A stretch of DNA of 64,000 nucleotides from Erysipelotrichaceae bacterium NK3D112 (lineage in GTDB: Bacteria > Bacillota_I > Bacilli_A > Erysipelotrichales > Erysipelotrichaceae). Location: NCBI GenBank assembly GCA_000701725.1, contig JNJQ01000004.1, positions 1-64,000 on the forward strand. The letters are read 5' to 3'. Made by a program: the position numbers and the translations under genes. The notes under the pieces were generated by a model. It made no database searches and had not been told where the DNA came from. It saw only the letters and a list, made by a program, of their open reading frames with translations. Of the stretch, positions 3,922-12,256 are shown piece by piece (position 1 is the stretch's first letter; each line of letters starts with the position of its first letter).

Positions 3922-5331
3922 GTGGAAGATATCAGAAAAACAGCAAATGATCTGATCAGCTGGATGAAAGATCAGGCTGCGGGCAAATGTGAAATCGGCG
4001 AAAGCGCTGAAAGCAACATGGACTGTCTGCATCTGGAAACCCCGTACGCAAAGGCGAATGTGACCGTCTATTATCTGGAATTCACGATCTGTGAACTGCG
4101 GGTCATGGACCGCAAGGATGAAAATGTCTTCTACCTTCACTTTGAACTGAATGACATTGATCATGCGAAGAGCCTTTATTCGGAAATGCTTGAATGCCTG
4201 CTCAAACAGAAACAGGACAATGATATCCATGTGCTGTTATGCTGCACATGCGGTCTGACCACTTCCTTCTTCACGATGAAGCTCAATGAGTCAGCCGCGG
4301 CCATGGGCATCAAAATGGACTTTGAGGCGGTTCCTTATGACAGGCTTTATGAGACGGCTGCCTCCAAGGATATCGTCCTGCTGGCGCCGCAGATCGGCTA
4401 CCAGCTCAAAAACGCGAAGAAGATTCTCACCGACAAGGCGGTATTCGCCATTCCGGCCGCGGTCTTCTCAAGCTATGACGTGCTTGGTCTGATCAACTTT
4501 GTCAGAGACAATGTGAACCAGCCGGAAGAGGAAAAAACAGCGCAGTCCGAAGAACGCTTATCCATGAATGAGAAGGGCGGCAGCGTGCTTCTGGTATCCG
4601 TCATCAACATGGAGCGCAGAACCCAGCTGGCCTACCGTGTCTATAACGGTCATGAGATCCTCATGGAAAAGCAGATTGTCAAGGAGACCTATGCGGCCAG
4701 CGACATCCTTGATGTCATCGCCACCGTGCTGACCCTTGATCCGGAGATTGAAACCGTCGGTGTTGTTTCCCCGGGCTCCTTCATTGACGGAAAGCTGACC
4801 TATGAAAAGGCCAATATCATCAACTTTGATATCCGTAATGAAATCGAGCAGAGATTCAAACGGAAGACGGTCGTGCTCAATGACACCGACGCGATGGCGC
4901 TGGGTTACAGCATGCGCGAAAGAAACGGCGCAGAGACGGCCTTCTACTTCCTGCCAAGCGGTGAATACGCGGGCAATATCGGCATGAGTGAAAACGGCAT
5001 GATCTTCGGCAATGCCGGCCATATGGGCGGCTCACAGCTTGAAGGCATCACCGACATCATGACCTTCCCCAAAAATCCTTATGCCCTTGCCAAGACACCG
5101 GAGGGCAATGTGATCCTGGCAGCCAGATACATCGCCGGCCTGATCACATTCACAGGATGTGCGCATGTGGCATATTATGCCAAGATGATTCCCGATACGG
5201 AATCACTGATGAAAGAGCTTGAAACCATCATCCGCAGGGAATATATCCCCGAAATTGTTAAGGTTGCCAGCATCAGGGATTATCTCTATGACGGGGCAAT
5301 GTATTATATAGAAAACAGAAAGGATCAATAA
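3922..5331 (+). CDS. PTS EIIB-like / ROK-like fusion protein
   Basis: The 469-residue protein starts at GTG 3922 (ribosome binding site GGAACGGGG at 3905-3913); an upstream GTG at 3895 is possible. Residues 1-95 are unassigned. Residues about 100-195 look like a lactose/cellobiose-type EIIB domain. C108 sits in C-T-C-G-L-T-T-S, matching the phosphocysteine loop C-x-x-G-M-S-T-S, and LLAPQIGY matches the family's LLGPQIAY. Residues about 222-465 look like a ROK sugar-kinase fold (VVSPGSF at 280-286, LNDTDAMALGY with D321, GNAGHMGG at 363-370). The N-terminal DxGxT phosphate loop and the ROK zinc cluster appear absent, so it may be a sensor rather than a kinase. It leads a four-gene operon with partner-switch proteins. 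I know of no characterised protein with this layout. Confidence 0.6.
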   Translation: MEDIRKTANDLISWMKDQAAGKCEIGESAESNMDCLHLETPYAKANVTVYYLEFTICELRVMDRKDENVFYLHFELNDIDHAKSLYSEMLECLLKQKQDNDIHVLLCCTCGLTTSFFTMKLNESAAAMGIKMDFEAVPYDRLYETAASKDIVLLAPQIGYQLKNAKKILTDKAVFAIPAAVFSSYDVLGLINFVRDNVNQPEEEKTAQSEERLSMNEKGGSVLLVSVINMERRTQLAYRVYNGHEILMEKQIVKETYAASDILDVIATVLTLDPEIETVGVVSPGSFIDGKLTYEKANIINFDIRNEIEQRFKRKTVVLNDTDAMALGYSMRERNGAETAFYFLPSGEYAGNIGMSENGMIFGNAGHMGGSQLEGITDIMTFPKNPYALAKTPEGNVILAARYIAGLITFTGCAHVAYYAKMIPDTESLMKELETIIRREYIPEIVKVASIRDYLYDGAMYYIENRKDQ

Positions 5332-5333
5332 TT

Positions 5334-5630
5334 ATGGAGATTGAACTGAAAAAGGACGGTACGCATCTGACCGCCGTCATGCACGGAAGAATCGACACAT
5401 CCACCAGCACCGATGCGGAAAGAATTCTGATTCCGGCGATTGAGGGAATCGATGATCTGGTTCTCGACTTTGCCGACATTGAATATATCTCATCTGCCGG
5501 TCTGCGTGTGCTTCTGCTGGTCTTCAAGCAGATGAGCGCCCAGGGCGAGATGAAGCTCATCAATGTCAATGAAGTGGTCCGTGAGGTCCTCGACATCACC
5601 GGCTTCCTTGACATCCTGAATGTCGAATAG
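5334..5630 (+). CDS. STAS-domain anti-sigma factor antagonist
   Basis: This 98-residue single STAS domain is of the SpoIIAA/RsbV type. Such proteins bind an RsbW/SpoIIAB kinase and release its partner; phosphorylation of one Ser switches them off. The switch loop EYISSAGLRVLL is present (S53/S54), as is the C-terminal NEVVREVLDITGF helix. It starts two bases after the stop of the EIIB-ROK gene, with AAAGGA as ribosome binding site, so the genes are co-transcribed. The probable partner is the ATPase at 5693-6100. No sigma factor gene lies nearby, so its target is unknown. Confidence 0.88.
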   Translation: MEIELKKDGTHLTAVMHGRIDTSTSTDAERILIPAIEGIDDLVLDFADIEYISSAGLRVLLLVFKQMSAQGEMKLINVNEVVREVLDITGFLDILNVE

Positions 5631-5692
5631 GAACACTCATCACAAGCATCTGCCATTAATGGCGGATCCCTGGCGCGTGGAGGTTTATGATC

Positions 5693-6100
5693 ATGAATGA
5701 AATGACAATTGATGCGACCGTTGAAAACATACCGGCGGTAACCGCGTTTGTGAATGAAAAGCTCGAGGAACTCAACTGCCCGATGAAGGCGCGGATGCAG
5801 ATCGATATCGCCATCGATGAGCTCTTCGGCAACATTTCCAATTACGCCTACAAGCCTGATGTCGGTCCGGCCACAGTCAGAGTGGAGGTGGACAATGATC
5901 CCGTTGCGGTGATCATCACGTTCATCGACGGCGGAAGGCAGTTTGATCCGCTTTCCGCGGATGATCCGGACACGACACTTCCCGCATCCGAGCGAAGAAT
6001 CGGCGGCCTCGGTCTTTTCCTTGTGCGCAAGACCATGGATGAGATCACCTATGAATACCGGGAAGGCAAGAATATATTGCGGATCCGCAAGAATATATGA
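5693..6100 (+). CDS. RsbW/SpoIIAB-like GHKL ATPase (serine kinase)
   Basis: This small GHKL-fold ATPase resembles anti-sigma Ser kinases. It has an N box with E and N (IAIDELFGNISNYAY), a G1 box (FIDGGRQFDP) and a G2 box (RIGGLGLFLVRKTMDE). The ATG at 5693 is favoured because GGAGG at 5678-5682 is well spaced from it; an in-frame ATG at 5687 is closer to that site. By family knowledge it should bind and phosphorylate the adjacent STAS proteins. It may sequester a sigma factor or another regulator encoded elsewhere. A GCCATTAATGGC hairpin lies in the 60-base gap before it. Confidence 0.85.
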   Translation: MNEMTIDATVENIPAVTAFVNEKLEELNCPMKARMQIDIAIDELFGNISNYAYKPDVGPATVRVEVDNDPVAVIITFIDGGRQFDPLSADDPDTTLPASERRIGGLGLFLVRKTMDEITYEYREGKNILRIRKNI

Positions 6101-6172
6101 GATACTTTGCGGGTTATCACCGCATCTGCCGTCCCGGGTACCGGACGGAAACAAAAACGGGAGGAAATTTGA

Positions 6173-7351
6173 ATGAATCTGATTGAAGCAAACGCCGAAG
6201 CGGAAACATTGCGTATTTATCTGATCGGGCATATCGACTCAGCCAATGCGGCGCAGATCGAAAAGGAAATTACGGAAGTCCGCAATGCCCATCCTGAATG
6301 CACGAAGATGATCATTGACGCCTCAAAACTGGAATATATTTCCAGTGCCGGCCTCAGAGTCATCCTGCGTTTAAGAAAAGTTTACCCGGATCTGAAACTG
6401 GTCAACGTTTCGGCGGAAGTATATGAAGTTTTTGATATGACGGGATTCACCGAAATGATGACTGTGGAAAAGGCATACCGCGTCATCTCCACCGAGGGAT
6501 GCGAAGTCATCGGCCAGGGCGCCAACGGCAAGGTTTACCGCATTGACCGCGACACGATCGTCAAGGTTTATATGAATCCGGACTCATTACCCGATATTCA
6601 GCGCGAGCGCGAACTGGCAAGACATGCGTTCGTTCTGGGGATTCCGACAGCGATTCCCTATGATGTTGTCAGAGTGGGAGAGGGATACGGCTCCGTATTC
6701 GAACTGCTCAACGCGACCTCATTTGCCAAATGGCTGGCGCAGAAACCGGAAGATCTCGATGAGATCGTCAGAGAAAGCGTAGATCTGCTTAAGAAGATCC
6801 ACAGCACCGTCGTCAAACCGGGCGAGGTTCCCGATATGCGCCAGACCGCGCTGAAATGGGTCACCTTCCTCAAAGACTATCTTTCCCCGGAAAAGGGCGA
6901 GAAGCTTGTCGCGATGGTTGAGGCGGTACCGGTGGATTATCATATGATGCACGGTGACTATCATATCAAGAATGTCATGCTGCAGGATGGCGAAGCATTG
7001 CTGATTGACATGGACACTCTCTGCCATGGACATCCCGTCTTCGAATTTGCTTCCATCTTCAATGCCTACCAGGGTTTCTCCTGTGCCGACCATACCAACA
7101 TTGAGCGCTTCCTCGGTATCACCTATGAGCAGGGTGCACAACTCTGGAACAAGACCCTGAAATACTATTTTGAGGGCAAGAGTGAAGAGGAAATCGCCGC
7201 GATCGGCGACCGTGCAAAGATCATCGGCTATTCCAGAATTCTGCGCAGGGCATACCGCAGACCCGATGAAGAGAACAGTGCGGTCATCGCCTTCTGCAAA
7301 AAGGAGATCGAAGATCTGCTTGAGCGGGTTGATTCCCTGACATGGGACTGA
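6173..7351 (+). CDS. STAS domain fused to an aminoglycoside-phosphotransferase-like kinase
   Basis: In this 392-residue fusion, residues 1-100 form a STAS domain with the switch loop EYISSAGLRVIL (S57/S58). Residues about 105-385 form a kinase of the APH/choline-kinase fold, with a glycine-rich loop GQGANGKVYRI (114-124), a Lys in IVKVY (131), HGDYHIKN (260-267; catalytic D262, N267) and LIDMD (D279). It recalls the TIGR02172 family of APH-like kinases. The substrate is unknown. The STAS part suggests control by the RsbW-like ATPase encoded just upstream. The ribosome binding site GGGAGGA precedes the ATG, and a strong terminator follows. It is the last gene of the operon. Confidence 0.8.
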   Translation: MNLIEANAEAETLRIYLIGHIDSANAAQIEKEITEVRNAHPECTKMIIDASKLEYISSAGLRVILRLRKVYPDLKLVNVSAEVYEVFDMTGFTEMMTVEKAYRVISTEGCEVIGQGANGKVYRIDRDTIVKVYMNPDSLPDIQRERELARHAFVLGIPTAIPYDVVRVGEGYGSVFELLNATSFAKWLAQKPEDLDEIVRESVDLLKKIHSTVVKPGEVPDMRQTALKWVTFLKDYLSPEKGEKLVAMVEAVPVDYHMMHGDYHIKNVMLQDGEALLIDMDTLCHGHPVFEFASIFNAYQGFSCADHTNIERFLGITYEQGAQLWNKTLKYYFEGKSEEEIAAIGDRAKIIGYSRILRRAYRRPDEENSAVIAFCKKEIEDLLERVDSLTWD

Positions 7352-7376
7352 TCCTTTCTGAACATTGAATTTTATG

Positions 7377-7417
7377 GAAACCGGTCTGTTTGTTAATGAC
7401 AGACCGGTTTCTTTTTT
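7377..7417 (+). terminator. Terminator of the EIIB-ROK/STAS operon
   Basis: GAAACCGGTCTGT (7377-7389) pairs perfectly with ACAGACCGGTTTC (7399-7411), followed by six Ts. Confidence 0.9.
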
Positions 7418-10627: not shown

Positions 10628-12256
10628 CTAACGTGTTCTCGAGAAGCCTTCTTTCATCATCTGATAGATGTTAATACCTTTCTGGTCAGCAGTCTTTATC
10701 AGGCTTAGGACATCGCAGTATGTTTCTGTGGATTCTGAACTTCTGAATGATATTACCGCCTTGGATTTTCTCTTGCATTGCCGTAACAGACGTTCGCTCA
10801 GATTGTTATCGTATTCCAACTCTGTCTCTGATGTCAGAAACGCCAGCGTTTCATTGCGGTATGCTTTCAGCCGTTTTGCCAGATTAAAGCCTTCCCGGTA
10901 ATACTTTACCGGCGGATGCAGTCTGTATTCTTTTTCTGCTGTATCCAGTATTTCATCGTACGTCTGAATCAGCACCTCCCGTTCATCCTCTGTTATGTTT
11001 TTCTCTTTATACCTGTGTATGATCCACTGCAGGTGCTTTTTCATCCTGGAGTTCCATGTCAGCTCCGGCTCATTATCTATACTGTCCTGACAATATCGTA
11101 TGATGTGAGCCAGACACTCCTGGTGTTCTTTGAAAGAAAACTCCTCATTGTAATAACTTCTGTCATGATCGTGGATCACTGCGTTCACATAGTTCTTCAG
11201 CGGTGTCGCTTTGATTCCTTCTACGCCCTTTACTTTCGAGAGTGTATATACGGCATCCCTGTCATTCGCTGTTACATAGATATTCCATTTCTCTCCGTTG
11301 ATTCGGATTCCTGTGGCGTCGCTGTGCAGCACCGGTGAGCACATCAGCCTGTGTATGATCTCTTTCCTGTCTTCTTCTGTCTTGTCTTTTAATTCTTTGG
11401 GTAGTCCGGCTATCATTCCGGTCGAAATGTTCAGCCTGTTATCTGTCAGGCTCCGGATCAGTTCCGCTGTTTTCCTGATGGATACGTTGCAGTATGAAGG
11501 CAATAAACAACAAAGTGCCTTGATCCCTTCACCGTAATTCACTTCATTTACGGCATTCGCAGGAAAGGCACTGTAAATAATCTGCTTCGTTTGTTTATTG
11601 CGGTATGCGTGCGCTTCGTACTGCACACAGCTGATTTCCATATGTGCATCAATAACCTGACGCACTCTCTTTATCTCCATTTCTTCCCAGTCTTCCGGAT
11701 TCTCAGTCACTTCCTGAGGCACCAGTTTAATCACTGGTTCTGTCGGCTCCATCGGCCTGCGCAAGGATCCCTTGTGTCCTTTCTGTCCGCCCGGCAGCCG
11801 TCCGCTTTTCTCTCTGCTGTTGGATATCTTTTTATGATTCTCATCTTTACTGGACGGAATGGATGAATTTGTATAATCACGGTTCAGCTGCGCGCTCATT
11901 TTTTTAATCGTTCCTTCCAGATCATTGATCTGTCTGCGCAGTTCATCTATCAGATTTTTATACTCATCCAGCATCCCTTCATATTCTTTTATGGCATCCT
12001 GAAGTTCTGAGTCCTTTTCGGAGATAATCCTTCTGAGCCGGGCATTTTCCGTAATATTCTTATTGTTGTTTTCAGACATCCTTTTATAGGAACTTTCTGA
12101 CATTGACAGCTTGTTCTGCAGCTTTTTGATTTCCTTCTCATATTTGGCTTTAAGAGATTCAAAAGCTTTGCCGGATTCGTAGTATTCCAGTTTTCTCTCA
12201 AGCCGGTAATAATCACCGCGAAGAATGTCATATTTTACTTCAAGTTCTGTTCTCAT
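10628..12256 (-). CDS. IS66-family transposase (TnpC type)
   Basis: This 542-residue transposase has a long charged coiled coil (about 1-130), a PGGQKGHKG linker motif (about 155-163) and a DDE catalytic region. Visible motifs are SPVLHSDATGIRI, AVIHDHDRSYY and the C-terminal YDNNLSERLLR, the IS66 signature N-N-x-x-E-R. The gene is intact and lies between perfect inverted repeats. The stop codon lies inside the terminal hairpin. No obvious ribosome binding site precedes the ATG. Confidence 0.95.
   Translation of the reverse strand: MRTELEVKYDILRGDYYRLERKLEYYESGKAFESLKAKYEKEIKKLQNKLSMSESSYKRMSENNNKNITENARLRRIISEKDSELQDAIKEYEGMLDEYKNLIDELRRQINDLEGTIKKMSAQLNRDYTNSSIPSSKDENHKKISNSREKSGRLPGGQKGHKGSLRRPMEPTEPVIKLVPQEVTENPEDWEEMEIKRVRQVIDAHMEISCVQYEAHAYRNKQTKQIIYSAFPANAVNEVNYGEGIKALCCLLPSYCNVSIRKTAELIRSLTDNRLNISTGMIAGLPKELKDKTEEDRKEIIHRLMCSPVLHSDATGIRINGEKWNIYVTANDRDAVYTLSKVKGVEGIKATPLKNYVNAVIHDHDRSYYNEEFSFKEHQECLAHIIRYCQDSIDNEPELTWNSRMKKHLQWIIHRYKEKNITEDEREVLIQTYDEILDTAEKEYRLHPPVKYYREGFNLAKRLKAYRNETLAFLTSETELEYDNNLSERLLRQCKRKSKAVISFRSSESTETYCDVLSLIKTADQKGINIYQMMKEGFSRTR

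Follow-up and report, generated by a model that had tools for sequence, protein, structure and literature searches.

Partner switches are known chiefly as controllers of sigma factors, and few enzyme targets of such switches, SiaD and MlaF, have been described. Here we analyze a four-gene operon at positions 3922-7351 of a 64,000-nucleotide stretch of the genome of Erysipelotrichaceae bacterium NK3D112 (contig JNJQ01000004.1, positions 1-64,000; this whole stretch is referred to below as the window), the products of which, P1 to P4, are an EIIB-ROK fusion protein, a free STAS protein, an RsbW-like ATPase and a STAS domain fused to an APH-type kinase. We propose, with a probability of roughly 0.6, that the operon is a partner-switching module with an enzyme as its output, in which P3 is the switch, P2 and P4 are its STAS partners and P1 is an accessory sensor.

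The SiaABCD system is a partner switch that acts on the diguanylate cyclase SiaD (PMC7647112, PMC8457831), MlaF is under the control of a STAS protein (PMC7367683), and one STAS-glycosyltransferase is mentioned in a review devoted to STAS-only proteins (PMC8256260). Partner switches that target enzymes are already known, and it is the form with a STAS-APH kinase for which we found no published description in the open-access literature (subscription papers were outside the search).

Conserved switch residues and a STAS-fused kinase

The domain composition given in the preliminary description of the operon is borne out by Pfam matches above cut-off and by structure matches. P2 also scores above the cut-off of TIGR00377 and, when aligned to the solved structures of RsbV and SpoIIAA, has Ser54 (codon 5493-5495) at the position of SpoIIAA Ser58; this serine is kept in all 47 free STAS homologues. 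The best matches of P3 are RsbW and SpoIIAB (E 1.8e-8 for its profile against RsbW 6m36), and E45, N49 of the N box and the GxxG loop are present in 68/68 homologues, which leaves P3 with the intact N box and G boxes of an RsbW/SpoIIAB-type GHKL kinase. P4 contains a STAS domain in residues 11-100, where Ser58 (codon 6344-6346) again aligns with SpoIIAA Ser58, and an APH domain starting at about residue 110. Each of the 77 STAS-APH homologues has this serine together with K131, E145, H260, D262, N267, D279 and D281, so that the HxDxxxxN motif, the metal-binding aspartate and the ATP lysine of an APH-fold kinase are found in every sequence.

The ATPase is covalently joined to STAS-APH in 23 of the 102 rows of the P4 tree, and its fusion in one large branch argues that the two proteins act together. 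The P3/P4 pair was modelled via such a natural STAS-APH-ATPase fusion from a relative (locus L043; loci of other genomes carry L numbers throughout) with 34 rows, giving a mean predicted local distance difference test score (pLDDT) of 92.0 and a predicted template modelling score of 0.82. In its C-terminal part the model resembles RsbW from the RsbV/RsbW complex (Z 17.0, 1.6 Å over 112 residues), and in its middle part APH and choline-kinase folds (Z about 16). An attempt to read the APH substrate from structure led to no assignment, as many different small-molecule kinases were matched. Separately, galT-like and sugar nucleotidyltransferase-like genes (by eye) lie near one STAS-APH branch in L049, L051 and L052, and these neighbours could hint at a sugar substrate for the kinase.

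Genes found in the same run as STAS-APH were counted in 80 loci, where contig ends make the counts lower bounds, with domain models that were made from small sets and whose representatives were verified by Pfam. The ATPase is present in 66 loci, a free STAS protein in 41, PP2C in 35, HD in 39, and PHP and DUF218 in nine each. In the representative PP2C-ATPase, a single protein matches both SpoIIE (E 2.2e-47) and HATPase_c_2 (E 8.6e-19), while Pfam on other representative neighbours gave HD_4, PHP and MatE-HATPase_c_2. The earlier idea that the switch controls a kinase thus gains from both the frequent clustering of the ATPase with STAS-APH and their natural fusion.

The distribution of the STAS-APH protein is broader than was first supposed. 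Within the genus of the window, 47 of 70 genomes encode it; among sampled genomes, the count is 12 of 392 for the phylum and 24 of 391 (~6%) for Clostridia, the class of an Oscillospiraceae relative. A contig scan gave at least 589 STAS-APH loci, mainly from rumen and gut metagenome bins labelled Clostridia and Erysipelotrichaceae. A few loci are labelled Spirochaetia or Coriobacteriales, though bin labels can err. The system, being widespread in Clostridia too, is not local to Erysipelotrichales as originally suggested.

Layout of the operon and its close relatives

The positions and order of the four genes, which form a same-strand run with gaps of 2, 56 and 72 bases, are as they had been reported (Table 1). 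The strong single terminator reported with them is also present, its hairpin having a fold z of -7.5 with 0 of 200 shuffles equally stable, although it occupies the position given in Table 1 and not 7377-7417.

Table 1. Coordinates of the operon genes and terminator in the window
Feature	Position	Strand	Basis
P1, EIIB-ROK fusion, 469 amino acids, GTG start	3922..5331	+	Pfam PTS_IIB + ROK
P2, SpoIIAA/RsbV-like free STAS protein, 98 amino acids	5334..5630	+	Pfam STAS, TIGR00377
P3, RsbW-like GHKL ATPase / putative serine kinase, 137 amino acids	5687..6100	+	Pfam HATPase_c_2
P4, STAS-APH kinase fusion, 392 amino acids	6173..7351	+	Pfam STAS + APH
Intrinsic terminator closing the operon: 15-pair stem, 7-base loop, T tail	7376..7412	+	terminator scan

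In three other genomes of the genus (L245, L249 and L252) the four genes occur in an identical order and without PP2C, and L240 has this arrangement with an HD gene added. Since the four-gene arrangement recurs in other genomes, it exceeds chance. Homologues scattered singly, or a first protein devoid of EIIB and ROK folds, either of which would have spoken against a system, were not seen for P2-P4 or for the subfamily of P1. The identities to P1, P2, P3 and P4 of the window are 86, 96, 96 and 93% in L245, 61, 86, 86 and 77% in L249, and 59, 62, 78 and 71% in L252. L249 and L240 share both flanks, the rpsF/ssb genes and, at the opposite end, the permease, and on the short contigs of L245 and L252 the permease flank alone is seen.

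In the window, a divergent DUF2225 gene lies upstream of the operon and a xanthine/uracil-type permease gene downstream. Hairpins in the operon gaps are no better than those of shuffled sequences (z -1.4 and -0.1) and Rfam gave 0 matches there; a shared GCATCTGCC word in the gaps represents no repeat family, and a phosphatase remnant between P2 and P3 was ruled out, the 56-base gap having no open frame. The sole hint of a mobile element in its vicinity is a 542-amino-acid open reading frame (ORF) at 10628-12256 of the minus strand, IS66-type transposase-like by eye.

Points against the proposed switch and alternative explanations

Two observations weigh against a partner-switching module with P1 as its sensor. 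The first is that a SpoIIE/PP2C phosphatase gene is missing from the window operon. The preliminary description treated the missing RsbU-type phosphatase as a feature of the system, a view that found no support: in most relatives a SpoIIE phosphatase-ATPase protein has the counterpart of P3 as its C-terminal part, and seven SpoIIE matches lie elsewhere in the window genome, one of them in a PP2C-ATPase and STAS pair. In the P4 tree, built by a quick method without bootstrap, the window groups with L129 and L130 (95 in the Shimodaira-Hasegawa-like approximate likelihood ratio test, SH-aLRT), the genomes of which have three to six SpoIIE matches, and the three are nested in a 15-row set (SH-aLRT 96) most members of which have PP2C-ATPase. 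The window operon is a phosphatase-less form of the cassette. The second observation is that P1 is missing from most STAS-APH loci and belongs to a large family of mainly scattered genes, for which reason its role may be incidental.

The P1 protein has an EIIB fold in residues ~101-203 (4222-4530) and a ROK fold in residues ~216-469 (4567-5328). Its AF2 (AlphaFold 2) model, built with 13 homologues (mean pLDDT 79.6), resembles EIIB-chitobiose over 103 residues (Z 18.7, 1.5 Å) and, over 233 residues, ROK kinases such as the ROK ManNAc kinase (Z 21, 2.8 Å). The EIIB active-site Cys108 (codon 4243-4245) is invariant in the 13 aligned homologues and, with the fold, marks P1 as carrying an EIIB of the Lac/Cel type of the phosphotransferase system (PTS). 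The DxGGT (ATP-binding) and Zn-binding Cys motifs of ROK sugar kinases are absent from all 13, and because of this loss the ROK half is more suggestive of a sensor without catalytic activity than of a sugar kinase. Among Pfam matches, P1 shows PTS_IIB and ROK only, with no N-terminal winged-helix DNA-binding domain of ROK repressors. In the operon-linked subfamily of P1 the motif reads CCxCG, against CxSG in other EIIB-ROK paralogues, and the extra Cys110 (4249-4251) may be a subfamily mark or a redox or metal site.

It is possible that P1 is outside the circuit, an EIIB-ROK paralogue that shares the transcript by accident, and we consider this a serious explanation, though less likely than not. 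EIIB-ROK proteins occur in 42 of 60 genomes of the order, in all 16 genera, with about ten paralogues per genome, and the family also occurs as separate EIIB and ROK genes, the ROK gene having a helix-turn-helix-like N-terminus (by eye; L112 and L117). P1 moreover evolves faster than P2-P4, as the lower identities in L245, L249 and L252 demonstrate. However, the subfamily of P1 adjoins STAS-APH in six of seven members in the first census, the other paralogues being scattered, and with further loci included the pairing is seen in 16 loci of the genus, the window included. P1 may lie 5' or 3' of STAS-APH or between PP2C-ATPase and STAS-APH, its presence on the P4 tree requires at least four changes, and its 2-base gap to P2 is preserved in L245 and L249. 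The recurrence of the pairing in varied positions and the repeated changes on the tree are good evidence that the subfamily is functionally tied to STAS-APH, the nature of the tie being a separate matter.

A different possibility concerns the output. The APH domain of P4 is weakly similar to SrkA/CotS/Bud32-type kinases and might be a protein kinase, or the cassette might control its HD or PHP neighbor with P4 as an extra layer of the switch. The frequency of HD and PHP genes in the 80 loci speaks for this explanation. The HD neighbor is RelA/SpoT-hydrolase-like (top solved match Lmo0812, E 2.6e-24), the PHP neighbor resembles 3',5'-nucleoside bisphosphate phosphatase, and one may speculate that the two, alarmone-hydrolase-like and nucleoside-bisphosphate-phosphatase-like, link the cassettes to nucleotide signaling. 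Yet both genes, recurrent in cassettes of relatives, are absent from the window operon, and fold matches of the L043 model are mainly to small-molecule kinases (aminoglycoside, choline, methylthioribose), though a common fold proves no function. We regard this alternative, too, as less likely than not.

Still less probable is an ordinary anti-sigma switch, where P3 would hold a sigma factor whose gene lies elsewhere, P2 and P4 would be two antagonists, and APH would only report or modulate. Such an arrangement agrees with the best matches of P3 and with eight Sigma70_r2 proteins in the genome. Nevertheless, a search with these eight proteins revealed no sigma gene in the window operon, as claimed for it at the outset, or in any STAS-APH cassette; only two sigma-like ORFs occur among the loci, one in L167, where it is antisense and apart from the cassette, and the other in L067, which has no STAS-APH. 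Furthermore, the fusion partner of the ATPase is STAS-APH, not a sigma factor, and the catalytic residues of APH are all retained. Finally, despite its APH fold and Pfam APH match, P4 is most improbable as an aminoglycoside-resistance enzyme with a regulatory domain, and was rejected as such, as it is conserved in anaerobes within a signaling cassette and no NCBIfam resistance model comes anywhere near its cut-off (APH(6), 17 vs 325 bits).

Possible mechanism and relation to known systems

If the operon is a partner-switching module, P3 would be a switch kinase that binds STAS domains and phosphorylates their conserved serine, its two partners being free P2 and the STAS domain of P4. The kinase of P4 would then be turned on or off depending on which partner P3 holds or phosphorylates; this control by P3 and STAS, as well as the resetting of the serines by a SpoIIE-type phosphatase, is suggested by the conserved residues, the clustering and the fusions. 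Such a phosphatase is fused to the ATPase in most relatives; the one serving the window genome would have to act from outside the operon. The EIIB half of P1 may carry PTS-derived phosphate on Cys108, while its ROK half, having lost the ATP-binding motif, may bind a sugar ligand, and P1 could be an optional input that relays sugar or PTS status to the switch.

STAS and ATPase domains were also seen attached to other proteins. STAS fused to a Cof-type HAD phosphatase, with the serine motif kept, is present in many genomes of the genus (L065, L230, L234-L239, L039 and L146), and L231, L232 and L233 have a C-terminal STAS on S-adenosylmethionine-dependent methyltransferase-like proteins (by eye). 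The same genus has a STAS-AMP (adenosine monophosphate) ligase (L067:10609-12468) and an AMP ligase with a marginal HATPase_c_2 match (L061:5107-7209). A MATE transporter with a C-terminal RsbW-like ATPase lies beside STAS-APH cassettes (L057:9938-11722, L136, L193, L183 and L206), and in an SDF symporter (L037:11223-12848, L057:6184-7830) the N-terminal domain is a distant relative of the ATPase (hhalign E 1e-6) that apparently lacks the GGLG glycine loop (by eye). The protein 5' of P1 in L037 and L038 was considered as PTS EIIC and rejected, as Pfam gives an SDF symporter.

We tentatively suggest, while considering it somewhat short of an even chance, that partner switches acting directly on metabolism form an undescribed class that is widespread among gut Bacillota. 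In this class, STAS or RsbW-like domains would be fused to transporters (MATE, SDF) and to enzymes (APH kinase, HAD phosphatase, methyltransferase, AMP ligase), and the present operon would represent its kinase branch, taking a sugar input from the PTS. The switch-kinase cassette, present in about 6% of the sampled Clostridia-class genomes and in two thirds of those of the genus, would supply gut and rumen bacteria with a further common path that connects signals to metabolism.

Among named families, the nearest relative of the APH domain is TIGR02172 (Fibrobacter paralogues; E 2e-31), yet P4 is below the model cut-off (109.5 vs 228.2 bits). In the Mlc-EIIB complex (PDB 3bp8), as in P1, an EIIB domain meets a ROK protein, whereas in P1 the two are covalently linked, the EIIB is of the Lac/Cel type, and there is no DNA-binding domain. 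In MlaFB of E. coli a STAS protein directly controls an enzyme too, but MlaFB has no kinase/phosphatase switch and its target is an ABC ATPase. With SpoIIAA/SpoIIAB/SpoIIE and RsbV/RsbW/RsbU of B. subtilis the cassette shares a phospho-serine STAS, a GHKL kinase and, in relatives, a SpoIIE-type phosphatase; it differs in having no sigma factor and a second STAS fused to an APH kinase, in the fusion of relatives' ATPase to phosphatase or STAS-APH, and in the window operon having no phosphatase. SiaABCD of Pseudomonas aeruginosa likewise has an enzyme as the output of a partner switch, and SiaA is the best NCBIfam match of the relatives' phosphatase with a score far under the cut-off; SiaD, however, is a separate diguanylate cyclase activated by SiaC, whereas here the APH kinase is fused to its own STAS domain.

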